Assembly: GCA_032622095.1 (NCBI GenBank)
Contig: CP136062.1
Coordinates: forward strand, 38,690,918 to 38,754,917
Source: Siphonodentalium dalli
Taxonomy: Eukaryota; Mollusca; Scaphopoda; Gadilida; Siphonodentaliidae
Reading direction: 5' to 3'
Length of the DNA stretch: 64,000 nucleotides
The notes under the pieces are model-generated. The model saw nothing but the letters and a program-made list of their open reading frames with translations, made no database searches and had not been told where the DNA came from. Positions 1-39,083 of the stretch are shown here, one piece after another. Position 1 is the stretch's first letter. Every line of letters starts with the position of its first letter. A program made the translations under genes and the position numbers.

Positions 1-442
1 AAGGCCCATTTAATTTTCGAGTCTCTGATTATTTTTTGTATAGTGCTTTGATATACGGTTTAAATGACAATCTATGCCATGAAATACTATTAAAATACTA
101 TTAATTCGTCACAATTTGAAACGTCTGTCTCAGAAGGTGCCCATAGAGAAATAGAGAAACAGTTGATATCATAGAAAGATTCCCCCCGTTATGGATCCCA
201 TATTGCAACATAATTCAAACTAAAAAATGTGTTTTCAATGGAAGGGGGTAACTCTATCTTTAAGATATATCCCCCTCCATTGAAAATAATACTTTGCACT
301 GCAAAACAGATGAAACTTAAGCACATAAACAGGTCGGTAACTCAACAAAAACATGTTCAGTTTATTACACCGAATAAGTTGATAATGCAATATTGTGACG
401 CTTCCTCGTTCAAATGGTATATAATATGGCATATATTTTATA
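1..442. mobile_element. Left half of a GGCCCA-type inverted-repeat element (MITE-like)
   Basis: The sequence begins with AAGGCCCATTTAATTTTCGA and runs in the same order as the reverse complement of the complete element at 4732-5187, with shared landmarks throughout (the sequence near 240-275, the stretch near 340-385, the ending near 425-440). Similarity stops at 442, where the Helitron-like terminus starts, so a second element appears to have inserted between A and T here and the right half is missing. The same junction is at 59136-59577. Non-coding; the small frames inside are not supported as genes. Confidence 0.7.
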
Positions 443-1399
443 CTAGCAGGGTTACCCGGCGTTGCCCAGGTTAACGTGGTGTGAAACCCTCTGCATATTG
501 TGGATATCTGGTGGAATAGAGGATACTTTTGTTCAAAGCGTTACACATATTGTCATAAATTATATATCCAAAATACCATCACAAAACATGATTCTTACAC
601 ACGGAATATAAGTAGTAGCTCACCTTGTCGGATCGGAGCGATTGTCATTTTGTTTATCGCGATTAATATGTCCCACCAATAAAGAACCATTTATTTATTT
701 ACAACTGCGTATACTTCAGACGTTATAACATGAACATCATAAACACATTAGTTCGCAAAAATAAAAGATGACAATTAGGTTTTACATAGAGATGTATCAA
801 TCAATCTAGTGGGTTTGACTAAGATTTTGAGGACACCTGGTTATCATATCTCCATGAAGATACAGATGTTTTAAAGAAATGTCCAGGTGCTCCTCTGTGC
901 ATTGTGCTATGTACTGACTAATTATTCTCTGCTTAAAAGAAATGTTGCTATGCAGCTATATCAGCTACATGTGCCCCGACACAGAGCGAGATTTTGAGTT
1001 GTTTATTATGTTAGGCGATGAGTCTGTTCTAAAATATGAAAGATATCCTCTGTATATTGGGCAGATATAACCTCGTCAGATGTCAGTATTGGATCCTGAT
1101 CTGTTTTCTTTCATCTCAGAAGAAATTATATTTGACGGCACACTGTGACCACTATTGTTGAACGGGCCTTCTATAAATTTCCATATCTCTTGTAATTTTT
1201 TTGTGGAAAATATATTGAATGGGCAAACTAAATTGTGTTATAATATTAACATGAGCTATTCTAATATTTTAACATGTACCATTATCTTCCTCGTAAAAGG
1301 TTACCACTATTAGAACGCCTTGGTACCACCTCGATTGTACCCCGTGAAGTTATATATAGAACAAATAGACATATATTTGCAAATATATCTAGGCACCAA

Positions 1400-3280
1400 A
1401 TGTGACGTTTTTAATACACACGATTTGATTCCTCGTATCATTTGAGAAGAACGTGTATGAATTTGATGTTAATTGGCACTAAACATATTTCTATCAGTTG
1501 TGGTGACCAGCCCGTCCCTATCTCGGACTCAAGCGGTGCCACATTTGACATCATTAAACCACAAACTTAGCTCAGTATAGAGATTAGTATATATAAAATT
1601 GTTGAAAATTGGCGAGTATACAAATTGGTATCAAATTTAGGGTCCCATAACTCTAACCCAAATGATACCAATTTGGCGTCATTAAATTACACGATTAGAT
1701 TCCTCGTATCACGAAGAAGAATATCTATCAAGTCTGGTGGAAATCGGCGCTAAACATATTGTTTATCTATTTCTGTGTCTCTCTCGCCCTCTGTGGACCC
1801 CTGTCTCGAATGTCACCACGTTTGACATCTTTAAACCACACAATTAGACTCTTGATATCATGGAGATAAATATTTATAAGTTTGGTGCTAATCGGGGACT
1901 AAACCCTTTTTTTTATCAAAGTTATGCCCATCCCACACCCACACCATCTCTCACACAAACAGCACCAATATAGCGTCTTTAAATCACATGATTGAATTCC
2001 TCGTGCCATGGATAAGAACGTGTATCAATTTGGTGGATTTTGGCGCTAAAATTATTTTTATCAATGTTGTTGCCCCTCATCCTTTCTCGAATGACGCTAC
2101 TTTTGACAGCAGTAAGCTTGTATAAGTTTTTGTATAAAATTGGCGAGTATACAAATTCGTATCAAATTTATTGCCCCCATATCTCTCATCCAAACGGCAC
2201 CAATTTGGCTTATCTAAACCACACGATTAGTCTTTCTCGTATCACGGAGAATATGTATCAATCTGGTGGAAATAAGCGCTAAACATATTGTTGATCTTTT
2301 TTGTGTTCCTCTCACCCTCTATGCATCTTGACTCGAATGGCCCCACTTGTGAGAGCTTGTGGCATCCTTAAACCACACAATTAGACTCCTGATATCATGG
2401 AGATGATTATTGATAAATCTGGTAAACCAATTTTGGTTAAATTTAGTGCCCACTAACCCTCATCTCTCACACAAACATAGCATCTTGAAATCACACGATC
2501 AGACTCTTCGTATTATGGATAAGAACGTGTATCACTTTGGTGGAAATTGACGTTAAAATTATTGCGTATCAATGCGTACCCTCTCCCATTCAGTTCAACC
2601 CTGATTCGAATAACGCCACTTTTGACAGATTTAAGCTACACCATTAGACTCCCCATACCATGGGGATGATATTGTATATGTGTGGCGGCAATCGGCGACT
2701 AAACCCATTCCTATCAAATTGAGTGCCCCTCCCACAATATTTCGTCCAAACGACAGCAATTTGGACTTGGCGTCTTTAAATAGCACACTTAAGAGCAGAC
2801 CTTAGATGCCTACAATCGCTAGAGATTTCGCATTCATACTGCAATTAGTTTCGGAGTATTCATTGTATCACGGAGAAGAATATATATAAATTGTGGAAAT
2901 CCGCGCTAAAATTAGTTTGATCAATTTACCCCCTTCGGTGTGCCCTGACGCGAAAGGCGCCACGTTTGGCATGTTTAAACAACTCCATTAGATTCATCAT
3001 ATCATGGGGATTATAATAAAAAAAAATCCGTGGCAATCGGCGGCAAAACAAATTTCTACCCCTCCCCTTTTTCTGCCCCTGACAACGGCGTCACTTTGGA
3101 AAATTCTAACCTACACCATTATCATTCTCGTAATAAGTTACCCCTAGTAGACCGTTTGGTGCAATCTAGATGGTCCCTCGGCGCTAAACTTAGTTGATCA
3201 ATTTTGGTGCCACCCCCCCCCCCCTTCTGTGCATCCCAGACTCGAATGGCGCCACTTTTGACATATTTAAACTATCTATT
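1400..3280. repeat. About ten degenerate ~150-bp tandem units inside the duplicated module
   Basis: A recurring pattern is seen starting near 1417, 1687, 1836, 1984, 2219, 2375, 2491, 2638, 2858 and 2981. Each unit has a CACACGATTAGATTCCTCGT-like segment, then TATCA(C/T)GGAGAAGAA, then a TGGTGGAAATCGGCGCTAAA-like segment, then a C-rich stretch (CCCCTCCCAC or similar) and a (G)GCGCCACTTTTGACAT-like segment. Units differ from each other far more than the two whole-module copies differ, so the array expanded long before the module was duplicated. Internal minisatellites are common in non-autonomous Helitron-like elements. Confidence 0.7.
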
Positions 3281-3306
3281 GCATATGGGTCTCTTCTGAC
3301 GTCATT

Positions 3307-4100
3307 GTTATGTTTTGTCTCACTATAACTGAGGACTAACGAGTGTATACGTTTCTATAATTTATTATACAATACTCCCTAAGCGCGACTGCTTTTATTT
3401 ATAGCAGAGAATCAGGAGCACGTGTTAGTGCAGCATGCAAACAAGTCATGAATATTAATGAGTTTGTATAATAGAAGATGGAGATGTCCCGATATATAAC
3501 ACCTCCCCGTTTTAACGAAAGATAGAGCGACAGTATGTTAAAGAGGAATGATACATAAATGGAAGGTGATACATCGAAATGTTGCCTCTTTCAATTTACT
3601 GTTTAGTAAATCCCACTTCTGACACCATGTTATGTTTTGTCTCTCTAAAAATGAGGACTAACGAGTGTATACGTTTCTATAATTTATTATACAATGTTAG
3701 TGCAGCATGAAAACGATTCATGAATATTAATGAGTTAGTATAGTAGAAGATGGAGATGTCCCGATATATAACATATCCTCGTTTTTACGAAAGATAGAGC
3801 GACAGTATCCTAAAGAGGAAAGATACAAAAATGGAAGGTGATTCATCGAAATGTTGCCTCATTCAATTTACAGTTTAGTACATCCCACTTCTGACACCAG
3901 GTTATGTTTTGTCTCTCATTAACTGAGGACTAACGAGTGTATACGTTTCTATAATTTATTATACAATGTTCCCTAAGCGCGCGACTGTTTTTATAGTAGA
4001 GAAGCTGGAGCACGTGTTAGTGCAGCATGCACACGATTCATGAATATTAATGAGTTAGTATAGTATAGAAGATGGAGATGTCCCGATATATAACAGTCAT
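3307..4100. repeat. Three direct units of about 270-320 bp
   Basis: TTATGTTTTGTCTC followed by AACTGAGGACTAACGAG starts at 3307, 3630 and 3901, each followed by GTGTTAGTGCAGCATG and GATGGAGATGTCCCGATA. The middle unit lacks the roughly 48-bp CCCTAAGCGCGC-containing segment that the middle unit of the right-hand module copy (near 62820) retains. So at least one deletion occurred after the two modules separated. Confidence 0.75.
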
Positions 4101-4731
4101 CATTGACCAAAATTTGGGTTTATACACCGCTACTATATATCGATGCTGATTGGCTATTCGCAAGAGCCGACATAATACAAAATGTTATCCGCCCCAGTGA
4201 TGGTTATATTTTCTGACATTTGCTACTGAAAGGCAAAATCCGTCGTCTATCTATATCTTTATTTGCGAATGTCTGTCTGTCTTCTATTCACGGGGGACCA
4301 TCTAGATGGCACCAAAGGGGTCTAACATGGGTAACTATTTACGAGGAAGATAATGGTGCGTGTTAGTATTTTCTAAAATGACGCTGTAACAGCGGTACTC
4401 GGTCCAAGATCAGCATCATTCAAACCGACACACCATGCTGCTGTAGTCCGAGAAGACTTGGTCTACTGGGCGACAAAAACATTCATCTGAATGAATGAAA
4501 ATAGGTTCAACTGTTTCAACCATTGCTCTGTTGTCGGCGATACCCTCCGGTCTCCGGTCGGCGACACCGAGTTAACGGGTGGTGGTGAGAACATTCAACA
4601 CTAGACGAAATGTGATGTTTTCAGATTTGGCGATTTCATGTAGTTTCCATGTATCGAATATACGTCACATTTACGATGCGTTTATTCTTATATTAGCAGT
4701 TTCTGTATTCTTCACGTTTTATTGGGTCTAA

Positions 4732-5187
4732 AGGCCCACTTAATTTTCGAACCTCCAGATTACTTTATATAAAATATATGCTATATTATATATCATTTTA
4801 AATCTCCAAGACATTGTATTATCAACTTATCCGGTGTAATAACATGTGGTCATGTTTTTGTTGAGTTGCCAACGCGTTTTGTCATAAAGATTGAAGTAAA
4901 AATCAGTATTATTTCCAATGCAGGGGGAATAACTCTATATATTAAAGATAGAGTTCTTCCCCTTTCATTGAAAAAGTTTGAATTCCCTTGCGTTATGTGT
5001 GCCAGAAAGGGGGTGGGGTCTTTAGCAGTTTTCTATTTCTCTGTGGGCATCTTCTGTGACACAGATGTTTCAAATAGTGATGAATTATAGCATTTTAATC
5101 ATATTTTATGGCATAGATTGTTATTAAAACCGAATATAAGTAACTATACAAAAAATAATCGGCGACTCAAAAATTGAGTGGGCCTTT
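4732..5187. mobile_element. Complete GGCCCA-type inverted-repeat element
   Basis: The two ends are inverted copies: AAGGCCCACTTAATTTTCGA at the left and the complement, ending in GTGGGCCTT, at the right. The element is about 455 bp with no coding capacity. It is flanked by TA on both sides if the ends are taken as AAGGCCC and GGGCCTT. It is the intact relative of the half element at 1-442 (reversed) and of the diverged one at 13193-13535. The superfamily is not assignable from this alone; no transposase is present. Confidence 0.7.
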
Positions 5188-6860: not shown

Positions 6861-6980
6861 AAATACAACGTATTATTAGGTCACTTGTTTTGGAAATTGA
6901 CATGATCCGTAATTAAATTACAAATTTGGTGCAGGGCGGTTGACTAATATTCCTGAAAGTTCATGCTGCTTTGAATTTTC

Positions 6981-7002
6981 TTCTCCTGCTCACTTTCCAC
7001 AG
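6981..7002 (+). promoter_or_regulatory. Likely 3' splice acceptor of the sulfotransferase exon
   Basis: TTCTCCTGCTCACTTTCCAC followed by AG at 7001-7002 is a good pyrimidine tract and acceptor, and the next base begins a codon of the long frame. This decides against the upstream non-ATG extension of the frame as real coding sequence. Confidence 0.65.
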
Positions 7003-7935
7003 GTGACGGTGATGAAGCTGATCGAAGCCAGGTGCCGGAACTCTGACGCAATATCTGGTAGAGCGAATACCGTAATTTACTGGACTAACTTGAAATCTGC
7101 TCTGTGCGTGGTTCCAAAAGCAGCAAGCACACTACTGCGCTCGGGAATATCGGACGAGTTGGAATCAAGAGTGGGAAAGCCGATGGTGGCCAAGGTCAAG
7201 GTCTGGAGTAGCCCGGATGTGTTCCGATACATGTTTGTGCGAAATCCTTGGTCGAGGTTATGGTCTGGATATGTCGATAAATTGGTGATGCTCGGATTCA
7301 GAAATAACAAATTCCCAATCTTCAATGCATTGAATCTGGGCGATTGTAGTAGAATTCCAACATTCGCAGAATTTATTGCATATCTCGCTAACCACGAGAA
7401 CAATCCGGGAGTTATTAACCAGCATTGGGCCCCGATCACGTTGTTGTGTGATCCCTGTTACTTTAAACCTCATTTCGTTGGTAAATTGGAAACTTTCGAC
7501 GATGACCTGAAGTACATTGGACAAAAGCTTCACATTACTGACGAGATTCGTATTGCAAACGACAAAGAAGGTAAAGCTAGGAACAAATTCTTGATCCCAA
7601 ATCAACTCAATTTTTACCTCAATAACAATGCATCGTGTGGCCTGTCTATTATGGGAATTTTGCATCGGATTTGGGTTGCTAGCATACTGACAGGTCGCAT
7701 AAACAACAAAGCAGTCTTCCCCCAGGCTGAGCTCGAAGCGATCCAACCATTTACATTACAGCGATCGGATCTTATCGTTGACATATTTAAAAAGTACAGC
7801 CTTGAGGGGGAGGCTCGACGAGCGCAGAAGAATCTTCTACGAGATAATGCCTACGCGGAAATTCCAGACGACCTTAAATCGCGCATCAGACGAATGTATA
7901 ATGACGACTTTACGTTGTTTGGATACGACCCGTGA
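7003..7935 (+). CDS. Carbohydrate sulfotransferase (Sulfotransfer_2 family), terminal coding exon
   Basis: The protein would move a sulfate group from PAPS to a sugar on a glycoprotein or glycosaminoglycan in the Golgi lumen, as the HNK-1ST/CHST8-14 relatives do; the acceptor sugar cannot be told from sequence. Counting from the ATG at 7012 (307 residues), the 5'-phosphosulfate loop is VVPKAAST at 33-40, the 3'-phosphate motif is RNPWSRLWSGYVDK at 77-90, NQHWAP is at 136-141, the CDPC cysteine pair at 146-149, GKLETFDDDL at 157-166, and the end DDFTLFGYDP is typical of the family. The exon probably starts at 7003, after a pyrimidine tract and CACTTTCCACAG, in phase with the frame; the open frame upstream of that has no ATG. 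Family members are usually longer and begin with a transmembrane anchor, absent here, so the anchor should be on an upstream exon not identified. The usual Cys-Thr of the PAPS loop is Ser-Thr. The frame is intact, so probably functional. Confidence 0.9.
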   Translation: MTVMKLIEARCRNSDAISGRANTVIYWTNLKSALCVVPKAASTLLRSGISDELESRVGKPMVAKVKVWSSPDVFRYMFVRNPWSRLWSGYVDKLVMLGFRNNKFPIFNALNLGDCSRIPTFAEFIAYLANHENNPGVINQHWAPITLLCDPCYFKPHFVGKLETFDDDLKYIGQKLHITDEIRIANDKEGKARNKFLIPNQLNFYLNNNASCGLSIMGILHRIWVASILTGRINNKAVFPQAELEAIQPFTLQRSDLIVDIFKKYSLEGEARRAQKNLLRDNAYAEIPDDLKSRIRRMYNDDFTLFGYDP

Positions 7936-15659: not shown

Positions 15660-15671
15660 TTTTTTGTCTGT

Positions 15672-15716
15672 TCTGGAAATTCCCAATTATAGCTACAGCT
15701 GTGTGTAGCTATTGTA
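15672..15716. repeat. Left inverted arm flanking the 15-bp array
   Basis: TCTGGAAATTCCCAATTATA then GCTACA … TGTAGCTATTGTA. It is the inverse complement, with few mismatches, of 29830-29879 on the other side of the array, about 80 bp outside its start. Confidence 0.6.
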
Positions 15717-16679
15717 TCCACATTTGACTTTCGTAAAACAATATTTTACCAATTTGCATTGCATGCATTACCCCGAGCTGTTGCAACTCAGGTTGAGGTG
15801 TATTGTGTTGAGGTGTATTGTGTTGTGGTGTATTGTGTTGAGGTGTATTATGTTGAGGTGTATTATGTTGTGGTGTATTGTGTTGAGGTGTATTATGTTG
15901 TGGTGTATTATGTTGAGGTGTATTGTGTTGAGGTGTATTATGTTGAGGTGTATTATGTTGTGGTGTATTGTGTTGTGGTGTATTGTGTTGAGGTGTATTA
16001 TGTTGTGGTGTATTGTGTTGAGGTGTATTATGTTGTGGTGTATTATGTTGAGGTGTATTATGTTGAGGTGTATTGTGTTGAGGTGTTTTATGTTGTGGTG
16101 TATTATGTTGAGGTGTATTATGTTGAGGTGTATTGTGTTGTGGTGTATTATGTTGAGGTGTATTGTGTTGAGGTGTATTATGTTGTGGTGTATTATGTTG
16201 AGGTGTATTGTGTTGAGGTGTATTATGTTGAGGTGTATTGTGTTGAGGTGTATTATGTTGTGGTGTATTGTGTTGAGGTGTATTATGTTGTGGTGTATTA
16301 TGTTGAGGTGTATTATGTTGAGGTGTATTGTGTTGAGGTGTATTGTGTTGAGGTGTATTATGTTGAGGTGTATTATGTTGTGGTGTATTGTGTTGTGGTG
16401 TATTATGTTGAGGTGTATTATGTTGTGGTGTATTGTGTTGTGGTGTATTGTGTTGTGGTGTATTGTGTTGTGGTGTATTGTGTTGTGGTGTATTGTGTTG
16501 AGGTGTATTATGTTGAGGTGTATTATGTTGTGGTGTATTATGTTGAGGTGTATTATGTTGAGGTGTATTATGTTGTGGTGTATTGTGTTGTGGTGTATTA
16601 TGTTGTGGTGTATTGTGTTGTGGTGTATTGTGTTGAGGTGTATTATGTTGAGGTGTATTGTGTTGAGGTGTATTGTGTT

Positions 16680-17084
16680 GAGGTGTATTATGTTGAGGTG
16701 TATTATGTTGAGGTGTATTATGTTGAGGTGTATTATGTTGAGGTGTATTATGTTGAGGTGTATTATGTTGAGGTGTATTATGTTGAGGTGTATTATGTTG
16801 AGGTGTATTATGTTGAGGTGTATTATGTTGAGGTGTATTATGTTGAGGTGTATTATGTTGAGGTGTATTATGTTGAGGTGTATTATGTTGAGGTGTATTA
16901 TGTTGAGGTGTATTATGTTGAGGTGTATTATGTTGAGGTGTATTATGTTGAGGTGTATTATGTTGAGGTGTATTATGTTGAGGTGTATTATGTTGAGGTG
17001 TATTATGTTGAGGTGTATTATGTTGAGGTGTATTATGTTGAGGTGTATTATGTTGAGGTGTATTATGTTGAGGTGTATTATGTT
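16680..17084. repeat. Homogeneous run of 27 identical 15-bp units
   Basis: All units here are GAGGTGTATTATGTT. A sister run of 23 units, one with a substitution, lies at 26041-26385, and the three units before each run are the same types in the same order, so the two runs descend from one block now about 9.36 kb apart. Confidence 0.85.
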
Positions 17085-20000
17085 GAGGTGTATTGTGTTG
17101 AGGTGTATTGTGTTGTGGTGTATTATGTTGAGGTGTATTATGTTGAGGTGTATTATGTTGAGGTGTATTATGTTGAGGTGTATTATGTTGAGGTGTATTA
17201 TGTTGAGGTGTATTATGTTGTGGTGTATTATGTTGAGGTGTATTATGTTGTGGTGTATTATGTTGAGGTGTATTATGTTGAGGTGTATTATGTTGAGGTG
17301 TATTATGTTGTGGTGTATTGTGTTGTGGTGTATTATGTTGTGGTGTATTATGTTGTGGTGTATTGTGTTGTGGTGTATTGTGTTGTGGTGTATTATGTTG
17401 TGGTGTATTGTGTTGAGGTGTATTGTGTTGAGGTGTATTGTGTTGAGGTGTATTGTGTTGTGGTGTATTATGTTGTGGTGTATTATGTTGTGGTGTATTG
17501 TGTTGTGGTGTATTGTGTTGTGGTGTATTATGTTGTGGTGTATTGTGTTGAGGTGTATTATGTTGAGGTGTATTATGTTGTGGTGTATTGTGTTGAGGTG
17601 TATTATGTTGTGGTGTATTATGTTGTGGTGTATTATGTTGTGGTGTATTGTGTTGAGGTGTATTATGTTGAGGTGTATTATGTTGAGGTGTATTATGTTG
17701 AGGTGTATTGTGTTGAGGTGTATTGTGTTGTGGTGTATTGTGTTGTGGTGTATTGTGTTGTGGTGTATTATGTTGTGGTGTATTGTGTTGTGGTGTATTG
17801 TGTTGTGGTGTATTATGTTGAGGTGTATTGTGTTGAGGTGTATTGTGTTGTGGTGTATTGTGTTGTGGTGTATTGTGTTGTGGTGTATTGAGTTGTGGTG
17901 TATTGTGTTGAGGTGTATTGTGTTGTGGTGTATTGTGTTGTGGTGTATTGTGTTGAGGTGTATTGTGTTGAGGTGTATTATGTTGAGGTGTATTGTGTTG
18001 AGGTGTATTATGTTGTGGTGTATTATGTTGAGGTGTATTATGTTGAGGTGTATTATGTTGAGGTGTATTGTGTTGAGGTGTATTGTGTTGAGGTGTATTA
18101 TGTTGAGGTGTATTATGTTGTGGTGTATTGTGTTGTGGTGTATTATGTTGTGGTGTATTGTGTTGTGGTGTATTATGTTGAGGTGTATTATGTTGAGGTG
18201 TATTGTGTTGTGGTGTAGTATGTTGTGGTGTATTGTGTTGAGGTGTATTATGTTGAGGTGTATTATGTTGTGGTGTATTATGTTGAGGTGTATTATGTTG
18301 AGGTGTATTATGTTGTGGTGTATTGTGTTGTGGTGTATTGTGTTGTGGTGTATTATGTTGAGGTGTATTATGTTGTGGTGTATTGTGTTGTGGTGTATTA
18401 TGTTGTGGTGTATTGTGTTGTGGTGTATTATGTTGAGGTGTATTATGTTGAGGTGTATTGTGTTGTGGTGTATTATGTTGTGGTGTATTGTGTTGAGGAG
18501 TATTATGTTGAGGTGTATTATGTTGTGGTGTATTATGTTGAGGTGTATTATGTTGAGGTGTATTATGTTGTGGTGTATTGTGTTGTGGTGTATTGTGTTG
18601 AGGTGTATTATGTTGAGGTGTATTATGTTGAGGTGTATTGTGTTGAGGTGTATTATGTTGAGGTGTATTATGTTGTGGTGTATTGTGTTGTGGGTGTATT
18701 ATGTTGTGGTGTATTGTGTTGTGGTGTATTATGTTGAGGTGTATTATGTTGAGGTGTATTGTGTTGTGGTGTATTATGTTGTGGTGTATTGTGTTGAGGT
18801 GTATTATGTTGAGGTGTATTATGTTGTGGTGTATTATGTTGAGGTGTATTATGTTGAGGTGTATTATGTTGTGGTGTATTGTGTTGTGGTGTATTGTGTT
18901 GTGGTGTATTATGTTGAGGTGTATTATGTTGTGGTGTATTGTGTTGTGGTGTATTGTGTTGAGGTGTATTGTGTTGAGGTGTATTATGTTGAGGTGTATT
19001 GTGTTGAGGTGTATTGTGTTGAGGTGTATTATGTTGAGGTGTATTATGTTGAGGTGTATTGTGTTGAGGTGTATTGTGTTGAGGTGTATTATGTTGAGGT
19101 GTATTATGTTGAGGTGTATTATGTTGAGGTGTATTATGTTGAGGTGTATTATGTTGTGGTGTATTATGTTGTGGTGTATTGTGTTGTGGTGTATTATGTT
19201 GTGGTGTATTATGTTGTGGTGTATTATGTTGTGGTGTATTGTGTTGTGGTGTATTGTGTTGAGGTGTATTGTGTTGAGGTGTATTGTGTTGAGGTGTATT
19301 ATGTTGAGGTGTATTGTGTTGTGGTGTATTGTGTTGAGGTGTATTATGTTGAGGTGTATTATGTTGAGGTGTATTATGTTGAGGTGTATTATGTTGAGGT
19401 GTATTATGTTGAGGTGTATTATGTTGAGGTGTATTATGTTGAGGTGTATTATGTTGAGGTGTATTATGTTGAGGTGTATTATGTTGAGGTGTATTATGTT
19501 GTGGTGTATTATGTTGAGGTGTATTATGTTGAGGTGTATTATGTTGAGGTGTATTATGTTGAGGTGTATTATGTTGAGGTGTATTATGTTGAGGTGTATT
19601 ATGTTGAGGTGTATTATGTTGAGGTGTATTATGTTGTGGTGTATTATGTTGAGGTGTATTATGTTGAGGTGTATTATGTTGAGGTGTATTATGTTGAGGT
19701 GTATTATGTTGAGGTGTATTATGTTGAGGTGTATTATGTTGAGGTGTATTATGTTGAGGTGTATTATGTTGAGGTGTATTATGTTGAGGTGTATTATGTT
19801 GTGGTGTATTATGTTGAGGTGTATTATGTTGAGGTGTATTATGTTGAGGTGTATTATGTTGTGGTGTATTGTGTTGAGGTGTATTGTGTTGAGGTGTATT
19901 ATGTTGAGGTGTATTATGTTGAGGTGTATTATGTTGAGGTGTATTGTGTTGAGGTGTATTATGTTGAGGTGTATTGTGTTGTGGTGTATTATGTTGAGGT

Positions 20001-20160
20001 GTATTATGTTGAGGTGTATTATGTTGAGGTGTATTATGTTGTGGTGTATTATGTTGTGGTGTATTGTGTTGTGGTGTATTATGTTGTGGTGTATTATGTT
20101 GAGGTGTATTATGTTGAGGTGTATTATGTTGAGGTGTATTATGTTGAGGTGTATTATGTT

Positions 20161-23100
20161 GTGGTGTATTGTGTTGAGGTGTATTATGTTGTGGTGTATT
20201 GTGTTGAGGTGTATTATGTTGTGGTGTATTATGTTGAGGTGTATTATGTTGTGGTGTATTATGTTGTGGTGTATTATGTTGTGGTGTATTATGTTGAGGT
20301 GTATTGTGTTGAGGTGTATTGTGTTGAGGTGTATTATGTTGTGGTGTATTATGTTGAGGTGTGTTATGTTGAGGTGTATTGTGTTGAGGTGTATTATGTT
20401 GAGGTGTATTATGTTGAGGTGTATTGTGTTGAGGTGTATTATGTTGAGGTGTATTATGTTGAGGTGTATTGTGTTGAGGTGTATTGTGTTGTGGTGTATT
20501 ATGTTGTGGTGTATTGTGTTGAGGTGTATTATGTTGTGGTGTATTATGTTGAGGTGTATTATGTCGTGGTGTATTATGTCGTGGTGTATTGTGTCGAGGT
20601 GTATTATGTCGAGGTGTATTATGTCGAGGTGTATTGTGTCGAGGTGTATTGTGTTGAGGTGTATTATGTTGTGGTGTATTGTGTTGAGGTGTATTATGTT
20701 GTGGTGTATTATGTTGTGGTGTATTATGTTGTGGTGTATTATGTTGAGGTGTATTGTGTTGTGGTGTATTATGTTGTGGTGTATTGTGTTGAGGTGTATT
20801 ATGTTGTGGTGTATTGTGTTGAGGTGTATTATGTTGAGGTGTATTATGTTGTGGTGTATTATGTTGTGGTGTATTGTGTTGAGGTGTATTATGTTGAGGT
20901 GTATTGTGTCGAGGTGTTTTGTGTCGAGGTGTATTGTGTCGAGGTGTATTGTGTCGTGGTGTATTATGTTGTGGTGTATTGTGTTGTGGTGTATTGTGTT
21001 GAGGTGTATTATGTTGAGGTGTATTATGTTGTGGTGTATTATGTTGTGGTGTATTATGTTGTGGTGTATTGTGTTGTGGTGTATTATGTTGTGGTGTATT
21101 ATGTTGTGGTGTATTATGTTGTGGTGTATTGTGTTGAGGTGTATTGTGTTGAGGTGTATTGTGTTGAGGTGTATTGTGTTGAGGTGTATTGTGTTGTGGT
21201 GTATTGTGTTGAGGTGTATTATGTTGAGGTGTATTATGTTGAGGTGTATTATGTTGAGGTGTATTATGTTGAGGTGTATTATGTTGAGGTGTATTATGTT
21301 GAGGTGTATTATGTTGAGGTGTATTATGTTGAGGTGTATTATGTTGTGGTGTATTATGTTGTGGTGTATTATGTTGAGGTGTATTATGTTGAGGTGTATT
21401 ATGTTGAGGTGTATTATGTTGAGGTGTATTATGTTGAGGTGTATTATGTTGAGGTGTATTATGTTGAGGTGTATTATGTTGAGGTGTATTATGTTGTGGT
21501 GTATTATGTTGAGGTGTATTATGTTGAGGTGTATTATGTTGAGGTGTATTATGTTGAGGTGTATTATGTTGAGGTGTATTATGTTGAGGTGTATTATGTT
21601 GAGGTGTGTTATGTTGAGGTGTGTTATGTTGAGGTGTATTATGTTGAGGTGTATTATGTTGAGGTGTATTATGTTGTGGTGTATTATGTTGAGGTGTATT
21701 ATGTTGAGGTGTATTATGTTGAGGTGTATTGTGTTGTGGTGTATTGTGTTGAGGTGTATTGTGTTGAGGTGTATTATGTTGAGGTGTATTGTGTTGAGGT
21801 GTATTGTGTTGAGGTGTATTGTGTTGAGGTGTATTGTGTTGTGGTGTATTATGTTGAGGTGTATTATGTTGAGGTGTATTATGTTGAGGTGTATTATGTT
21901 GTGGTGTATTGTGTTGAGGTGTATTATGTTGTGGTGTATTGTGTTGAGGTGTATTATGGTGTGGTGTATTATGTTGAGGTGTATTATGTTGTGGTGTATT
22001 ATGTTGTGGTGTATTATGTTGTGGTGTATTATGTTGAGGTGTATTGTGTTGAGGTGTATTGTGTTGAGGTGTATTATGTTGTGGTGTGTTATGTTGAGGT
22101 GTGTTATGTTGAGGTGTATTGTGTTGAGGTGTATTATGTTGAGGTGTATTATGTTGAGGTGTATTGTGTTGAGGTGTATTATGTTGAGGTGTATTATGTT
22201 GAGGTGTATTGTGTTGAGGTGTATTGTGTTGTGGTGTATTATGTTGTGGTGTATTGTGTTGAGGTGTATTATGTTGTGGTGTATTATGTTGAGGTGTATT
22301 ATGTTGTGGTGTATTATGTTGTGGTGTATTGTGTCGAGGTGTATTATGTCGAGGTGTATTGTGTCGAGGTGTATTGTGTCGAGGTGTATTGTGTCGAGGT
22401 GTATTATGTTGTGGTGTATTGTGTTGAGGTGTATTATGTTGTGGTGTATTATGTTGTGGTGTATTATGTTGTGGTGTATTATGTTGAGGTGTATTGTGTT
22501 GTGGTGTATTATGTTGTGGTGTATTGTGTTGAGGTGTATTATGTTGTGGTGTATTGTGTTGAGGTGTATTATGTTGAGGTGTATTATGTTGTGGTGTATT
22601 ATGTTGTGGTGTATTGTTTTGAGGTGTATTATGTTGAGGTGTATTGTGTTGTGGTGTATTATGTTGTGGTGTATTGTGTTGAGGTGTATTCTGTTGTGGT
22701 GTATTGTGTTGAGGTGTATTATGTTGTGGTGTATTATGTTGTGGTGTATTGTGTTGTGGTGTATTATGTTGTGGTGTATTATGTTGTGGTGTATTATGTT
22801 GTGGTGTATTGTGTTGAGGTGTATTATGTTGAGGTGTATTGTGTTGTGGTGTATTATGTTGTGGTGTATTGTGTTGAGGTGTATTATGTTGAGGTGTATT
22901 ATGTTGAGGTGTATTATGTTGTGGTGTATTGTGTTGAGGTGTATTATGTTGTGGTGTATTGTGTTGAGGTGTATTATGTTGTGGTGTATTATGTTGAGGT
23001 GTATTATGTTGTGGTGTATTATGTTGTGGTGTATTATGTTGTGGTGTATTGTGTTGAGGTGTATTGTGTTGAGGTGTATTGTGTTGAGGTGTATTATGTT

Positions 23101-23460
23101 GTGGTGTATTATGTTGAGGTGTGTTATGTTGAGGTGTATTGTGTTGAGGTGTATTATGTTGAGGTGTATTATGTTGAGGTGTATTATGTTGAGGTGTATT
23201 GTGTTGAGGTGTATTATGTTGAGGTGTATTGTGTTGAGGTGTATTGTGTTGTGGTGTATTATGTTGTGGTGTATTGTGTTGAGGTGTATTATGTTGTGGT
23301 GTATTATGTTGAGGTGTATTATGTTGTGGTGTATTATGTTGTGGTGTATTGTGTCGAGGTGTATTATGTCGAGGTGTATTATGTCGAGGTGTATTGTGTC
23401 GAGGTGTATTGTGTTGAGGTGTATTATGTTGTGGTGTATTGTGTTGAGGTGTATTATGTT
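20161..23460. repeat. Higher-order duplicated blocks within the 15-bp array
   Basis: The order of unit types at 20161-20910 is repeated at 21901-22650 (offset 1740 bp, 116 units) and in part at 22921-23460 (a further 1020 bp, 68 units). The copies share rare markers: the GTGTTATG (position 8) variant near 20360, 22100 and 23115, and the TGTCG clusters. A few single-unit differences distinguish the copies. Confidence 0.85.
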
Positions 23461-26400
23461 GTGTTGTATTATGTTGTGGTGTATTATGTTGAGGTGTATT
23501 GTGTTGTGGTGTATTGTGTTGAGGTGTATTATGTTGAGGTGTATTGTGTTGAGGTGTATTATGTTGAGGTGTATTATGTTGAGGTGTATTATGTTGAGGT
23601 GTATTATGTTGAGGTGTATTATGTTGTGGTGTATTATGTTGTGGTGTATTGTGTTGAGGTGTATTATGTTGAGGTGTATTATGTTGAGGTGTATTATGTT
23701 GAGGTGTATTGTGTTGAGGTGTATTGTGTTGAGGTGTATTATGTTGTGGTGTATTGTGTTGAGGTGTATTGTGTTGAGGTGTATTGTGTTGAGGTGTATT
23801 ATGTTGAGGTGTATTGTGTTGAGGTGTATTGTGTTGAGGTGTATTATGTTGAGGTGTATTATGTTGTGGTGTATTATGTTGTGGTGTATTATGTTGAGGT
23901 GTATTATGTTGAGGTGTATTATGTTGAGGTGTATTATGTTGAGGTGTATTATGTTGAGGTGTATTGTGTTGAGGTGTATTGTGTTGAGGTGTATTGTGTT
24001 GAGGTGTATTATGTTGAGGTGTATTATGTTGTGGTGTATTGTGTTGAGGTGTATTGTGTTGAGGTGTATTATGTTGAGGTGTATTATGTTGAGGTGTATT
24101 ATGTTGATGTGTATTATGTTGAGGTGTATTGTGTTGAGGTGTATTGTGTTGAGGTGTATTATATTGAGGTGTATTATGTTGTGGTGTATTATGTTGTGGT
24201 GTATTGTGTTGAGGTGTATTGTGTTGAGGTGTATTATGTTGTGGTGTATTATGTTGAGGTGTATTGTGTTGAGGTGTATTGTGTTATGGTGTATTATGTT
24301 GTGGTGTATTATGTTGAGGTGTATTATGTTGTGGTGTTTTGTGTTGAGGTGTATTATGTTGAGGTGTATTATGTTGAGGTGTATTATGTTGAGGTGTATT
24401 ATGTTGTGGTGTATTGTGTTGAGGTGTATTATGTTGAGGTGTATTATGTTGTGGTGTATTGTGTTGAGGTGTATTATGTTGTGGTGTATTGTGTTGAGGT
24501 GTATTATGTTGAGGTGTATTGTGTTGAGGTGTATTATGTTGTGGTGTATTATGTTGTGGTGTATTGTGTTGAGGTGTATTATGTTGAGGTGTATTGTGTT
24601 GAGGTGTATTATGTTGAGGTGTATTGTGTTGAGGTGTATTGTGTTGTGGTGTATTGTGTTGAGGTGTATTATGTTGAGGTGTATTGTGTTGAGGTGTATT
24701 GTGTTGAGGTGTATTATGTTGAGGTGTATTGTGTTGAGGTGTATTATGTTGTGGTGTATTATGTTGAGGTGTATTATGTTGTGGTGTATTATGTTGTGGT
24801 GTATTGTGTTGAGGTGTATTATGTTGAGGTGTATTATGTTGAGGTGTATTATGTTGTGGTGTATTGTGTTGAGGTGTATTATGTTGAGGTGTATTATGTT
24901 GAGGTGTATTATGTTGAGGTGTATTATGTTGTGGTGTATTGTGTTGAGGTGTATTATGTTGAGGTGTATTATGTTGTGATGTATTGTGTTGAGGTGTATT
25001 ATGTTGAGGTGTATTATGTTGTGGTGTATTGTGTTGAGGTGTATTATGTTGAGGTGTATTATGTTGTGATGTATTGTGTTGAGGTGTATTATGTTGTGGT
25101 GTATTGTGTTGAGGTGTATTATGTTGAGGTGTATTATGTTGTGGTGTATTATGTTGAGGTGTATTATGTTGTGGTGTATTGTGTTGAGGTGTATTATGTT
25201 GAGGTGTATTATGTTGTGGTGTATTGTGTTGAGGTGTATTATGTTGAGGTGTATTATGTTGAGGTGTATTAAGTTGTGGTGTATTGTGTTGAGGTGTATT
25301 ATGTTGAGGTGTATTATGTTGAGGTGTATTATGTTGAGGTGTATTATGTTGTGGTGTATTGTGTTGAGGTGTATTATGTTGTGGTGTATTGTGTTGTGGT
25401 GTATTATGTTGTGGTGTATTGTGTTGAGGTGTATTATGTTGAGGTGTATTATGTTGAGGTGTATTATGTTGAGGTGTATTATGTTGAGGTGTATTATGTT
25501 GAGGTGTATTATGTTGTGGTGTATTATGTTGAGGTGTATTATGTTGAGGTGTATTATGTTGTGGTGTATTATGTTGTGGTGTATTGTGTTGTGGTGTATT
25601 GTGTTGAGGTGTATTATGTTGAGGTGTATTGTGTTGAGGTGTATTATGTTGTGGTGTATTGTGTTGAGGTGTATTATGTTGTGGTGTATTGTGTTGAGGT
25701 GTATTATGTTGTGGTGTATTATGTTGAGGTGTATTATGTTGAGGTGTATTGTGTTGTGGTGTATTGTGTTGTGGTGTATTGTGTTGTGGTGTATTGTGTT
25801 GTGGTGTATTATGTTGAGGTGTATTGTGTTGAGGTGTATTGTGTTGTGGTGTATTATGTTGTGGTGTATTGTGTTGAGGTGTATTATGTTGAGGTGTATT
25901 ATGTTGTGGTGTATTATGTTGAGGTGTATTATGTTGAGGTGTATTGTGTTGTGGTGTATTGTGTTGTGGTGTATTGTGTTGTGGTGTATTGTGTTGAGGT
26001 GTATTATGTTGAGGTGTATTGTGTTGAGGTGTATTGTGTTGAGGTGTATTATGTTGAGGTGTATTATGTTGAGGTGTATTATGTTGAGGTGTATTATGTT
26101 GAGGTGTATTATGTTGAGGTGTATTATGTTGAGGTGTATTATGTTGAGGTGTATTATGTTGAGGTGTATTATGTTGAGGTGTATTATGTTGAGGTGTATT
26201 ATGTTGAGGTGTATTATGTTGAGGTGTATTATGTTGAGGTGTATTATGTTGAGGTGTATTATGTTGAGGTGTATTATGTTGAGGTGTATTATGTTGAGGT
26301 GTATTATGTTGAGGTGTATTATGTTGAGGTGTATTATGTTGAGGTGTATTATGTTGAGGTGTATTATATTGAGGTGTATTATGTTGAGGTGTATTGTGTT

Positions 26401-29400
26401 GAGGTGTATTGTGTTGACGTGTATTGTGTTGAGGTGTATTGTGTTGTGGTGTATTGTGTTTAGGTGTATTGTGTTGTGGTGTATTGTGTTGAGGTGTATT
26501 GTGTTGAGGTGTATTGTGTTGAGGTGTATTATGTTGTGGTGTATTATGTTGAGGTGTATTATGTTGTGGTGTATTATGTTGTGGTGTATTGTGTTGTGGT
26601 GTATTGTGTTGAGGTGTATTATGTTGAGGTGTATTATGTTGTGGTGTATTATGTTGAGGTGTATTATGTTGTGGTGTATTATGTTGAGGTGTATTATGTT
26701 GAGGTGTATTGTGTTGTGGTGTATTGTGTTGTGGTGTATTGTGTTGTGGTGTATTGTGTTGTGGTGTATTGTGTTGTGGTGTATTATGTTGTGGTGTATT
26801 GTGTTGTGGTGTATTGTGTTGTGGTGTATTGTGTTGAGGTGTATTGTGTTGTGGTGTATTGTGTTGTGGTGTATTATGTTGTGGTGTATTCTGTTGAGGT
26901 GTATTGTGTTGTGGTGTATTATGTTGTGTTGTATTGTGTTGTGGTGTATTGTGTTGTGGTGTATTATGTTGTGGTGTATTGTGTTGAGGTGTATTGTGTT
27001 GTGGTGTATTATGTTGTGGTGTATTGTGTTGTGGTGTATTATGTTGTGGTGTATTATGTTGTGGTGTATTATGTTGTGGTGTATTTTGTTGAGGTGTATT
27101 GTGTTGTGGTGTATTATGTTGAGGTGTATTATGTTGTGGTGTATTATGTTGAGGTGTATTATGTTGTGGTGTATTGTGTTGAGGTGTATTGTGTTGAGGT
27201 GTATTATGTTGAGGTGTATTATGTTGAGGTGTATTATGTTGAGGTGTATTATGTTGTGGTGTATTATGTTGAGGTGTATTATGTTGTGGTGTATTATGTT
27301 GAGGTGTATTGTGTTGAGGTGTATTGTGTTGTGGTGTATTGTGTTGTGGTGTATTGTGTTGTGGTGTATTATGTTGTGGTGTATTGTGTTGTGGTGTATT
27401 GTGTTGTGGTGTATTATGTTGAGGTGTTTTGTGTTGAGGTGTATTGTGTTGTGGTGTATTGTGTTGTGGTGTATTGTGTTGTGGTGTATTGTGTTGTGGT
27501 GTATTATGTTGAGGTGTATTGTGTTGTGGTGTATTATGTTGAGGTGTATTGTGTTGAGGTGTATTGTGTTGTGGTGTATTGTGTTGAGGTGTATTATGTT
27601 GAGGTGTATTATGTTGAGGTGTATTCTGTTGAGGTGTATTGTGTTGTGGTGTATTATGTTGAGGTGTATTGTGTTGAGGTGTATTGTGTTGTGGTGTATT
27701 GTGTTGAGGTGTATTATGTTGTGGTGTATTGTGTTGAGGTGTATTATGTTGTGGTGTATTATGTTGAGGTGTATTATGTTGTGGTGTATTGTGTTGTGGT
27801 GTATTATGTTGTGGTGTATTGTGTTGTGGTGTATTATGTTGAGGTGTATTATGTTGAGGTGTATTGTGTTGTGGTGTATTATGTTGTGGTGTATTGTTTT
27901 GAGGTGTATTATGTTGAGGTGTATTATGTTGTGGTGTATTATGTTGAGGTGTATTATGTTGAGGTGTATTATGTTGTGGTGTATTGTGTTGTGGTGTATT
28001 GTGTTGTGGTGTATTATGTTGTGGTGTATTGTGTTGAGGTGTATTATGTTGAGGTGTATTATGTTGAGGTGTATTGTGTTGAGGTGTATTATGTTGAGGT
28101 GTATTATGTTGAGGTGTATTGTGTTGAGGTGTATTATGTTGAGGTGTATTATGTTGTGGTGTATTGTGTTGTGGTGTATTATGTTGTGGTGTATTATGTT
28201 GTGGTGTATTATGTTGTGGTGTATTATGTTGAGGTGTATTATGTTGAGGTGTATTGTGTTGAGGTGTATTATGTTGAGGTGTATTGTGTTGTGGTGTATT
28301 GTGTTGAGGTGTATTGTGTTGTGGTGTATTATGTTGAGGTGTATTATGTTGTGGTGTATTATGTTGAGGTGTATTATGTTGAGGTGTATTATGTTGAGGT
28401 GTATTATGTTGAGGTGTATTATGTTGTGGTGTATTATGTTGAGGTGTATTATGTTGAGGTGTATTATGTTGAGGTGTATTATGTTGTGGTGTATTATGTT
28501 GAGGTGTATTATGTTGTGGTGTATTATGTTGAGGTGTATTATGTTGAGGTGTATTGTGTTGAGGTGTATTGTGTTGAGGTGTATTGTGTTGTGGTGTATT
28601 ATGTTGAGGTGTATTATGTTGTGGTGTATTGTGTTGAGGTGTATTGTGTTGAGGTGTATTGTGTTGAGGTGTATTGTGTTATGGTGTATTGTGTTGAGGT
28701 GTATTATGTTGAGGTGTATTGTGTTGAGGTGTATTGTGTTGAGGTGTATTATGTTGTGGTGTATTATGTTGAGGTGTATTATGTTGAGGTGTATTATGTT
28801 GAGGTGTATTGTGTTGAGGTGTATTGTGTTGTGGTGTATTATGTTGAGGTGTATTATGTTGTGGTGTATTATGTTGAGGTGTATTGTGTTGAGGTGTATT
28901 GTGTTATGGTGTATTGTGTTGAGGTGTATTATGTTGAGGTGTATTATGTTGAGGTGTATTATGTTGAGGTGTATTATGTTGTGGTGTATTATGTTGAGGT
29001 GTATTATGTTGAGGTGTATTATGTTGAGGTGTATTATGTTGAGGTGTATTATGTTGTGGTGTATTGTGTTGAGGTGTATTGTGTTGTGGTGTATTGTGTT
29101 GAGGTGTATTCTGTTGTGGTGTATTGTGTTGTGGTGTATTGTGTTGTGGTGTATTATGTTGAGGTGTATTATGTTGTGGTGTATTGTGTTGAGGTGTATT
29201 GTGTTGAGGTGTATTATGTTGAGGTGTATTATGTTGAGGTGTATTGTGTTGTGGTGTATTGTGTTGAGGTGTATTATGTTGAGGTGTATTATGTTGAGGT
29301 GTATTATGTTGAGGTGTATTATGTTGAGGTGTATTATGTTGAGGTGTATTATGTTGTGGTGTATTATGTTCAGGTGTATTGTGTTGAGGTGTATTGTGTT

Positions 29401-29535
29401 GAGGTGTATTATGTTGAGGTGTATTATGTTGAGGTGTATTATGTTGTGGTGTATTGTGTTGAGGTGTATTATGTTGAGGTGTATTGTGTTGAGGTGTATT
29501 ATGTTGAGGTGTATTGTGTTGAGGTGTATTGTGTT

Positions 29536-30152
29536 GTTACAATTTATGAACTCACATCCGAAGACATTTCGGTTGCACCAGCTTGTGGAATATCGGAGAA
29601 GCACAGCTAAGTGACATGGGACTCGGATTCTTCTTTTATTTAGGTGCAGTTGTCAGGAAAAAGTAACAGTATTGGAATATGTTATTAATTATACATGGAC
29701 ATGGCAAACAATATTAATTTACTAAGAGTATAATCAAATCTTGTTCTTGTATATTTAAATGATTGTTTGTTGGATTGGGTTATCTCTCTCTTCAACCATA
29801 TTCATCCATCACCAATAGCCATATGTAGCTACAATAGCTACATATATGGCAATTGTAGCTATAATTGGGAATTGCCAGACCTGGTCGTATGGGGCAGGGA
29901 TCTTCAAGTGCATGTAGTGAACCATTATATGGGGGCGAATAAATTCCGTTATAGGAGAGTAATGGAGCAGATTTCCGACGTAAACCGGCGTATGTAACAA
30001 CCGATATCGCAAGTTCGTTTATGTCCAAGGATGTGGTCGAGCAATAAGAGGGGCGGCTGAACCAGGAATGAGTCCACAACCGGCCAAGTAGGCGGGAGCC
30101 AGTGCAATGTCTCTACCCCGTCACCACAATGTCTCTACCCCCGGCATCATAA
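29536..30152. other. Right flank of the array, no gene recognised
   Basis: Unique-looking sequence with the inverted arm at 29830-29879 (TCTGGCAATTCCCAATTATA and GCTACA on the minus strand) matching 15672-15716. Short open frames across 29767-30079 overlap this palindromic arm and have no family resemblance. Confidence 0.5.
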
Positions 30153-35500: not shown

Positions 35501-35857
35501 CAATTTTGATTCCCATAGAGATCATCAATGATGTCTATGCGCAAGGGCGACGTGCCAATCTTCTCTATTGGGATTCCAATTGTTGGCTCATTAAATATGC
35601 ACATATGCTTAAGATACAGTCGCGCATGAAGCGCGCTCCCGTAAGTCGGGTTTTGGATCACAGTTAATGAAAATATTATTGAAATAATCGGTTTTCCCCA
35701 ATAAACAACCATATATTCAATATACATGTTTTGGAGCAGAATTAGGCAGTCCATATTGGACGCCATCATGGAATTTATTTTTTTTGGTTTAATTTTCACA
35801 CATATTTATTAGTTATGTGGATGGAGTTCTCATTAAACCTCACATCCTTATATTGGT

Positions 35858-35990
35858 TACAGTAATGCCCAAAGTAATTGACCACTTAACCACATCATAA
35901 TTATTGGTAATTTTTCAGGATTTAAAATCCTGAAAAATTACCAATAATTATGCTGTGGTTAAGTGGTCAATTACTTTGGTCATTACTGTA
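35858..35990. mobile_element. 133-bp palindromic element, copy 1
   Basis: Nearly complete palindrome: it starts TACAGTAATGCCCAAAGTAA and ends with the complement, and the centre is CAGGATTTAAAATCCTG. It is the first of three with an exact 175-bp spacing. Confidence 0.85.
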
Positions 35991-36032
35991 TGAGGATTGA
36001 GTTATCATTACACCTCAAATCCTTATATTGGT

Positions 36033-36165
36033 TACAGTAATGCCCAAAGTAATTGACCACTTAACCACAGCAGAATTATGGGTATTTGTTCAGCATTTAA
36101 AATCCTGACAAATTACCCATTATTATGCTGTGGTTAAGTGGTCAATTACTTTGTGCATTACTGTA
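36033..36165. mobile_element. 133-bp palindromic element, copy 2
   Basis: Same ends and same length as copy 1, starting exactly 175 bp later. The centre is more mismatched (CAGCATTTAAAATCCTG). Confidence 0.85.
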
Positions 36166-36207
36166 TGAGGATTGAGTTATCATTACACCTCAAATCCTTA
36201 TATTGGT

Positions 36208-36340
36208 TACAGTAATGCTCAAAGTAATTGACCACTTAACCACAGCAGAATTATGGGTATTTTTTCAGCATTTAAAATCCTGACAAATTGCCAATAATTA
36301 TGCTGTGGTTAAGTGGTCAATTACTTTGGACATTACTGTA
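36208..36340. mobile_element. 133-bp palindromic element, copy 3
   Basis: Starts exactly 175 bp after copy 2 with the same length. A half copy is at about 56854-56920. The spacers carry the shared TGAGGATTGAGTTATCATTA and CCTTATATTGGT sequence, so whole 175-bp units were duplicated in tandem. Confidence 0.85.
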
Positions 36341-36890
36341 TGAGGATGGAGTTAAACCTCACATGAGTGTGTTGGGGATTTGGACCTTGACTTGGGACCT
36401 TTTGTTTTTAACGCGACAAATGCGCATACACCTTATACACAAATTTCTTATGTAACCAGAGTTTTTCTTGGATAAGATGAGTTTGAAGCCTGCTTACATT
36501 TCAAAATGTCGTCAGTTTTATATTGTCTGCAGCGGAACTCAACGCGTTGAAGCAAAAGTTACAAAAGATAAAATGTGTATGTAACGAGACTATAATACAA
36601 CTGAAAAAATAAATTGAGGGAGGGGTGGGCGATACAGGGAACTAAGGGTTGAACCGATATAAATTTGTAGAGCAATAACGACCAATGTTGACACATTATG
36701 CATCTGAACTCAGAGATCGACTCTACTGTTGCAACAAGGCTTTAAAATAGGGGGGTGTCAGAATCTTAGTCATCTCTATATAGTGCCAGAATAGTCATTT
36801 ATGGACTTCTATAAGATGTTGGATTGGTTATATGGACACGGAGAAAAAGTGGTTTGTACCGATGAACTGACATAAATTAGTGGAGCGATG

Positions 36891-37969
36891 TTGCATCGCG
36901 ACTGTACTAAAGCAGCAATGATATCAAATTGGGGGGGGGTCTGAAATTATCTATCTCTATAGATGGCACCAGGATTATATAGAAAGGAATAGCAATTGAT
37001 ATACGTATACGGTATACTATAGTAATACCATAGACATATAAGTGCAAGTATCACATGATAAAATATTACGTAACGTGACTATACCGATGAAAGAAATAAA
37101 TAAATTGGACCGGGATTAGAGGTTGGGTTGGTTATAAGTTGATAATTGGATATGGAATTCATACCGATGAAACGATACAAATTAGTGGAGCGATAAAGAC
37201 CAATGTTGACATTTATTCAGGCTACGCGGGAGAAAATAGGGGTTTATACGATAGACCGAAATAAATTTGTTGGGTGATAATGACCAATGTTGACATATAA
37301 AGTAATGCGACTGTACTGTCGGATAATTATCAGGTGTAACCGGTCAAATATGGACTCTTGTGACCAATATAGAACAGCTTAGAAAACATTCGCAGGGCCC
37401 TAAAATTTATTTAACACTGCATTTGCCATTAAAATCGATTTATGTCAATCAAACTGTCATTTTTCAAAATTTTAAGCTGAGACTTGGAGTGTGTGGGTGG
37501 GATACCTACATATTCCTAAAATGACAGAGTACAGCACGTAATTATGTTTTAGATGGAAGAAATGAATTTTTTTCAATGATAAAATTTAACATGGAATTTA
37601 CCATTAAAATCGATTTATGTCGATAAAACTGTCTTTTTTTCAAACTTTTAGGCTGAGACTTGGTGCATGTGCGTGGGATACATATATGTTCCTAAAATGA
37701 CAGAGTCCAGCGCGTAATTATGTTTTAGATGGAAGAAATTGAATTTTGTCGATGATAAATTTTAACATGGAATTGTCCCATTCAAATCTATTTATGTCGA
37801 TAAAACTGTTATTTTTCAAAAATTTAAGCTGAGACTCGGTGTTTCTGCGTGGAATACCTATATATTCCGAAAACGGCAGGGTTAAGCACGTAATTATCTT
37901 TTAGATGGAAGAAATTGATTTGTTTCGATGATAAAAATCCAGCGTAAAATAATCGCCAATGGAGGCTTC
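36891..37969. repeat. 1.08-kb tandem duplication, unit 1
   Basis: Begins TTGCATCGCGACTGTACTAA. The last 550 bp are three sub-units of about 180 bp (AAGCTGAGACTTGG, ATTCCTAAAATGACAG, TTTTAGATGGAAGAAAT). The next copy follows directly with no gap. Confidence 0.9.
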
Positions 37970-39083
37970 TTGCATCGCGACTGTACTAAAGCAGCAATGA
38001 TATCAAATTGGGGGGGGGGGGGTCTGAAATTATCTATCTCTATAGATGGCACCAGGATTATATAGAAAGGAATAGCAATTGATATACGTATACGGTATAC
38101 TATAGTAATACCAAATTACCATAGACAAATAAGTACAAGTATCACATGATAAAATATTACGCAACGTGACTATACCGATGAAAGAAATAAATAAATTGGA
38201 CCGGGATTAGAGGTTGGGTTGGTTATATGTTGATAATTGGATATGGAATTCATACCGATGAAACGATACAAATTAGTGGAGCGATAAAGACCAATGTTGA
38301 CATTTAGTCAGGCTACACGGGAGAAAATAGGGGTTGATACGATTGACCGAAATAAATTTGTCGGGTGATTATTAAATGACCAATGTTGACCTATAAAGTA
38401 ACGCGACTGTACTGTCGGATAATTATCAGGTGTAACCGGTCAAATATGGACTCTAGTGACCAATATAGAACAGCTCAGAAAACATTCGCAGGGCCCTAAA
38501 AATTAGTAAAATTTATTTAACACCGCATTTGCCATTAAAATCGGTTTATATCGATAAAACTGTCATTTTTTTTAAAATTTTAAGCTGAGACTTGGAGTGT
38601 GTGGGTGGGATACCTACATATTCCTAAAATGACAGAGTACAGCACGTAATTATGTTTTAGATGGAAGAAATGAATTTTTTTCAATGATAAAATTTAACAT
38701 GGAATTTACCATTAACATCGATTTATGTCGATAAAACTGTCTTTTTTCAAACCTTTAGGCTGAGACTTGGTGCATGTGCGTGGGATACATATATGTTCCT
38801 AAAATGACAGAGTCCATCGCGTAATTATGTTTTAGATGGAAGAAATTGAAGTTTTTTCGATGATAAATTTGAACATGGAATTGTCCCATTCAATTTCAAA
38901 TCTATTTATGTCGATAAAACTATTATTTTTCAAAGATTTAAGCTGAGACTCGGTGTTTCTGCGTGGAATACCTATATATTCCGAAAACGGCAGGGTTAAG
39001 CACGTAATTATCTTTTAGATGGAAGAAATTGATTTGTTTCGATGATAAAAATCCAGCGTAAAATAATCGCCAATGGAGGCTTC
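37970..39083. repeat. 1.08-kb tandem duplication, unit 2
   Basis: Starts with the same TTGCATCGCG and ends at the same GGAGGCTTC. It differs by scattered substitutions, a longer G run near 38010 and small insertions (for example near 38110, 38365 and 38500). Non-coding. Confidence 0.9.

Follow-up and report, generated by a model that had tools for sequence, protein, structure and literature searches.

A 916-unit minisatellite of Siphonodentalium dalli, probably born inside a dispersed inverted-repeat element and grown by in-register copying

The initiation and the runaway growth of a tandem array are usually reconstructed from the end product. The DNA analyzed here (the window, a stretch of 64,000 nucleotides from Siphonodentalium dalli) contains a 15-bp array that has stayed in register over 13.7 kb, and an earlier note had asked whether something preserves the unit length, such as an in-frame requirement, a binding protein or nucleosome phase, or copying only by whole units, or whether the assembly had been smoothed. 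The assembly (2.2 Gb, nine contigs) holds a dispersed element with a single unit, sister copies with one unit or with four to six units and flanks about 99% alike, and the 916-unit outcome, the rare-change load of which is comparable with that of its own flanks, so that the timing and the copying step become testable. The assembled length of 13.7 kb rests on this one assembly, and the analysis covers one genome. The array is probably a non-coding variant-repeat minisatellite that was born inside a dispersed inverted-repeat element and grew in a burst by in-register copying.

Wrap-around alignment of 15795-29536 resolved 916 head-to-tail units of GWGGTGTATTRTGTT, 915 of them of 15 bp and one of 16 bp, with no deletion and one insertion; the trailing G at 29536 belongs to the right flank. 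TRF independently reported the same array at 15792-29536 with 916.3 copies. The length of 916 x 15 + 1 bp claimed beforehand is exact, and the extra G, previously placed at 18693, is the same event as the one located here. A chance origin of the array is ruled out.

15795 to 29535, forward strand: array of 916 units of GWGGTGTATTRTGTT, from wrap-around alignment and TRF
18692, forward strand: single inserted G, changing GTGG to GTGGG inside GG to GGG

Minisatellites, or VNTRs, are built of units of about 10-60 bp placed head to tail. The present locus has a 15-bp head-to-tail unit in 916 copies, and its copy number takes the values 1, 4, 5, 6 and 916 among 23 paralogous copies. Among the 915 units of 15 bp, position 2 is A in 583 and T in 332, and position 11 is A in 576 and G in 334, with five odd letters; the four main states that had been noticed earlier are confirmed, with counts of 398 for a (A2, A11), 151 for b (A2, G11), 155 for c (T2, A11) and 158 for d (T2, G11). 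The remaining 13 positions hold 49 changes, 19 of which are T to C at position 15. Together with the five odd letters at position 11, this gives 54 rare changes touching 53 of the 916 units. The units of human variant-repeat (MVR) minisatellites occur in a small number of sequence states, the order of which can be read off. The four states are likewise interspersed along the present array in non-random order and can be read as a string, but here the string is transposon-borne and lies in a duplicated locus.

Without the array, the sequence from about 15667 to 29884 is an element of ~0.5 kb with inverted ends, interrupted at a slot that holds the repeat.

15667 to 15794, forward strand: left part of the element with the terminal inverted repeat (approximate start; alignments of dispersed copies begin at about 15663-15672)
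29536 to 29884, forward strand: right part of the element, closed by the terminal repeat in inverted orientation (approximate end; alignments of dispersed copies extend to about 29855-29889)
15792 to 15795, forward strand: GTTG across the left array edge, recurring at 15-bp steps and also flanking the lone unit in single-unit sisters

The size of ~0.5 kb, the inverted repeats at both ends and the many dispersed copies are those of a MITE; no clean target-site duplication was seen by eye in the seven element copies printed. A 41-base pattern for the single-unit slot (up to three mismatches) gave 146 matches in the assembly, compared with none for the reversed control, and matches to the element lie on all nine contigs, whereas dimers of the dispersed 15-bp form numbered zero in the assembly at up to two mismatches. 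Of 17 dispersed matches listed, seven were fetched; the slot was read in five, and in L031 from the pattern listing, with L029 excluded. Four of the six slots thus read contain a single unit, as a repeat born within a transposon would require of its monomer, and two carry duplications of their own. L030 (C2:29533207-29536329) has the slot in three copies with a period of about 28 bp, the last unit of which makes up at least one of the 146 matches, and L033 (C1:14370754-14373877) has it in two copies with a period of about 30 bp. The slot may be prone to duplicate, because these two copies carry independent duplications there.

The window spans one period of a tandem segment of about 45 kb (without the array), since its two ends are 97.4% identical.

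1 to 4829, forward strand: part of the macrosatellite segment that matches 59136-64000 at 97.4% identity
59136 to 64000, forward strand: matching stretch of the next segment copy, 97.4% identical to 1-4829

A search with a 231-base query from the left flank found 23 near-identical copies of the locus (93-100% identity) on two chromosomes, namely eight on C2 (38.37-38.71 Mb), the last of which is the copy in the window, and 15 on C5 (263.03-263.65 Mb). Weaker matches (85-88%) are dispersed element copies; 40 of 567 candidates were scored, and more weak matches exist. L001-L003 fall at the place of L022 and L004 at that of L009, and none of these were counted as separate copies. The slot holds one unit in five of the 22 sisters (L023-L027), four in 13, five in three and six in one. 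Over about 2.7 kb of flank, substitution differences from the window amount to 0.59-1.12% in the 20 sisters other than the inverted L023 and L024. In this macrosatellite form, GTTG stands on both sides of the 15-mer at a spacing of exactly 15 bp, through a T in place of the dispersed G; the dispersed form reads GGTG to the left of the 15-mer, and T was found there in none of the 100 slots listed.

The earlier note had suggested looking for the unit elsewhere in the genome. The exact dimer occurs 872 times in the whole 2.2-Gb assembly, with 824 occurrences in the array and 48 in the sisters (the latter summed by hand from the sister tracts). All 872 are therefore placed, and the assembly contains no further array with exact dimers. 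Many sister tracts of four or five units consist of an a unit followed by b units (e.g. abbb), so A at position 11 is already present there, and the A/G choice at this position probably predates the expansion. None of the 22 sisters has T at position 2, which was seen only in the 916-unit array. The array opens with bb and closes with babb, and these outermost units resemble those of the sisters. A 13-bp unit with a 2-bp deletion occurs once each in L007 and L009, one of which is a C5 copy and the other a C2 copy; its presence in both points either to exchange between the C2 and C5 clusters or to common descent from a single copy.

The order of the states bears on how the array grew. Ten block copies of 16-54 units each were found at offsets of 17 to 644 units (a block was counted if more than 35% of its units differ from the commonest unit), compared with 0-1 in each of eight second-order Markov controls. 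The longest run of one state is 27 units; in 500 shuffles the longest run averaged 8.1 units and never exceeded 14.

20101 to 20910, forward strand: 54-unit block, matching a block 116 units downstream at 83% of units
21841 to 22650, forward strand: second copy of the 54-unit block, from the block comparison
22846 to 23460, forward strand: 41-unit block, matching the block that starts at 20086 at 85% of units

Positions 2 and 11 of one unit, 9 bp apart, show a linkage of 0.23, whereas position 11 and the following unit's position 2, only 6 bp apart, show 0.005; at other spacings linkage is irregular (0.04-0.14 at several lags), as expected from block copies. The difference has block-bootstrap ranges of 0.06-0.40 (100-unit blocks) and 0.12-0.33 (20-unit blocks), and both halves of the array agree. 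Together, the block duplications and the confinement of linkage to units support in-register copying, which agrees with one of the earlier proposals. All four state combinations are common, and therefore some within-unit exchange or recurrent change did occur.

Two growth models were run. The first was uninformative, as recurrent mutation swamped the linkage and most settings had too few accepted runs. The second is a toy model with seeds and rates chosen by hand and with seeds that differ between settings; its accepted runs numbered 38-65 of 1500 for uniform breakpoints and 9-80 for the other settings, two of which had only 9 and 11. A combination of within-unit linkage at 0.2 or more and cross-boundary linkage below 0.1 arose in 0-3% of accepted runs with uniform breakpoints and in 9-60% with breakpoints rarely or never inside units; by a looser measure (a difference of at least 0.22) the values were 4-15% and 15-68%. 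In the setting that bars breakpoints from units altogether, within-unit linkage averaged slightly below zero, so that its sign is not predicted there. A more specific scheme, in which about four units became about 900 in one fast burst, with exchange breakpoints mostly in the 6-bp zone from position 11 to the next position 2 that holds GTTG, and with units acting as whole modules, as the earlier note had guessed, is held only tentatively and is rather doubtful, because the within-unit coupling could instead date from a single origin of T2 on a G11 unit. If the scheme were true, module-wise copying would also help to exclude indels.

The age of the array was estimated from the rare changes, which were grouped by eye into about 34 independent events, or 0.25% over 13.7 kb. 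The flank of the window copy carries seven private substitutions in 2700 bp (0.26%) relative to the 20 alignable sisters; relative to all 22 sisters, including the two rearranged ones, it carries six and no private gap, the latter because both rearranged copies lack those bases too. From the similarity of the two loads, the array looks about as old as the private history of the copy, although this is rough, with only seven events on the flank side. Growth would mostly have preceded the rare variants, because the two dimorphisms stand at 36%, whereas the variant ranked next, at 2%, is confined to 19 units, which form four clusters at distances roughly matching the block offsets, and almost every other variant occurs once.

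Whether one indel in such an array is few depends on the yardstick. The flanks of 21 alignable copies (the inverted L023 and L024 being omitted from these counts, as their flanks are rearranged) contain 142 variable columns and 27 gap patterns, of which six by eye, or eight by the rule that the gap string is not a copy of its neighbour, lie outside simple runs. The outside-run yardstick was applied because runs within the unit do not exceed two bases, and it predicts 34 x 6/142 = 1.4 or 34 x 8/142 = 1.9 array indels, compared with the one observed. All 27 patterns predict 6.5, against which one is low (P about 0.01). The flank of the window copy has two private gaps of 1 bp, of which one falls in a run of A and the other outside runs, and two gaps to seven private substitutions predict about 10 array indels, or five outside runs, from very small numbers. 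The count is low by two of the four yardsticks used; the single indel thus ranges from unremarkable to clearly low, and 2.7 kb of flank cannot decide. A strict length constraint, as considered in the earlier note, is not needed by the outside-run estimate, and the other two comparisons leave room for some protection. Two sisters carry a 13-bp unit, and strict protection of the length therefore does not hold.

The most direct form of protection would be selection on the unit length, either because a repetitive protein is encoded or because a protein binds each 15-bp unit, and we regard this as very unlikely. It would account for the low indel count relative to all flank indels and to the two private gaps of the copy, and the minus strand gives a fair hint of coding: HNTPQ is the only frame in which both dimorphisms are silent, and a minus-strand open frame of 4647 aa crosses the array. 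However, the HNTPQ frame is interrupted by stops in units 566, 859 and 874, where shorter minus-strand open frames end, and is shifted by the inserted base, and the 4647-aa frame is a different one (NIIHL) in which both dimorphisms change the residue. Furthermore, only four of about 34 rare changes are silent in HNTPQ, compared with 20% of all possible changes. The unit sits in a mobile element, and the 13-bp sister units also count against protection. An open frame kept by selection was not found, and the in-frame requirement that had been proposed is not supported, given the stops and frameshift of the silent frame and the 13-bp units. A coding array was therefore judged unlikely. Slippage driven by hairpins was likewise rejected, as two 120-base pieces of the array gave no stable single-strand fold on either strand.

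It is also unlikely, though less so than selection on length, that the length or regularity was made or smoothed by an assembler or polisher. The array length is near that of one accurate long read, and the remaining 22 copies are all short. On the other hand, the state string is far from periodic and has block copies at several offsets, the array is joined to this copy's own flanks with their private changes, and tandem T2 units occur nowhere else among the exact dimers of the assembly. We give a similarly low probability to the reading that the array is old and owes its register to continual homogenisation, with no recent burst. Copying did continue after some rare changes had arisen, as is seen in the clusters of position-15 C in block copies; against great age stand the equal loads of array and flank, the absence of any variant between 2% and 36%, and the sisters with nearly the same flanks and only one to six units.

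A birth in the element followed by a recent burst thus appears the probable course. The first duplicates would have arisen by slippage or unequal exchange at the GTTG pair, which is the proposed microhomology. One copy would then have expanded in a burst through in-register copying of units and blocks, most of this growth taking place while only the two early dimorphisms existed, and mostly point changes would have gathered afterwards. Three things would have kept the unit length: in-register copying, a unit without runs of three or more bases, and the short time elapsed. Several points count against this course. The burst itself was not seen, as none of the 23 locus copies has 7 to 915 units, and the array indels are low by the two comparisons given above. 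The flanks may have been refreshed by gene conversion between copies, and the five single-unit sisters could reflect loss from four units to one. The earlier interpretation is therefore supported in part: in-register copying stands, the in-frame requirement finds no support, and a length constraint stands or falls with the yardstick.

Transposon-born tandem repeats, those of MITEs included, are already well documented in the accounts drawn on here (PMC6947457, PMC9659126, PMC4596501). Minisatellites have been proposed to be born at short flanking direct repeats of 5-10 bp (Haber and Louis 1998, as described in PMC6947457), and the present locus may be comparable, as the lone 15-mer of the single-unit sisters has a short direct repeat, GTTG, on both sides at exact unit spacing. 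Unlike in that description, the repeat is 4 bp and below the quoted 5-10 bp, the array has 916 units, and states of 1, 4 to 6 and 916 units occur in one assembly. Taken alone, a four-base repeat would be weak evidence of such an origin. Xstir and miDNA4 of Xenopus and HindIII and BIV160 of bivalves are tandem repeats borne by MITEs (PMC9659126, PMC6947457), and as described there they resemble the present array in arising inside a small non-autonomous inverted-repeat element; they differ in that here a single genomic copy underwent the large expansion, and nothing indicates that it spread by transposition. A minisatellite within a MITE has also been described in Porphyromonas gingivalis (PMC4596501), which according to that account is the same arrangement in a bacterium. 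What is distinctive here is that the states of one, four to six and 916 units survive side by side.

In the window, a search at Rfam gathering scores and a scan for tRNA and tmRNA genes found nothing, and the macrosatellite segment carries a protein-coding candidate.

6913 to 7935, forward strand: sulfotransferase (PF03567) open frame, carried by the macrosatellite segment

The segment that carries this frame is repeated in the C2 and C5 clusters, and a 501-bp part of the frame occurs in 28 places, in 27 of them at 97-100% identity, a pattern suggestive of recent duplication or of interchromosomal exchange. The window also has other tandem repeats at 35814-39050, 51178-51674 and 62432-63271, the periods of which range from 105 to 328 bp.
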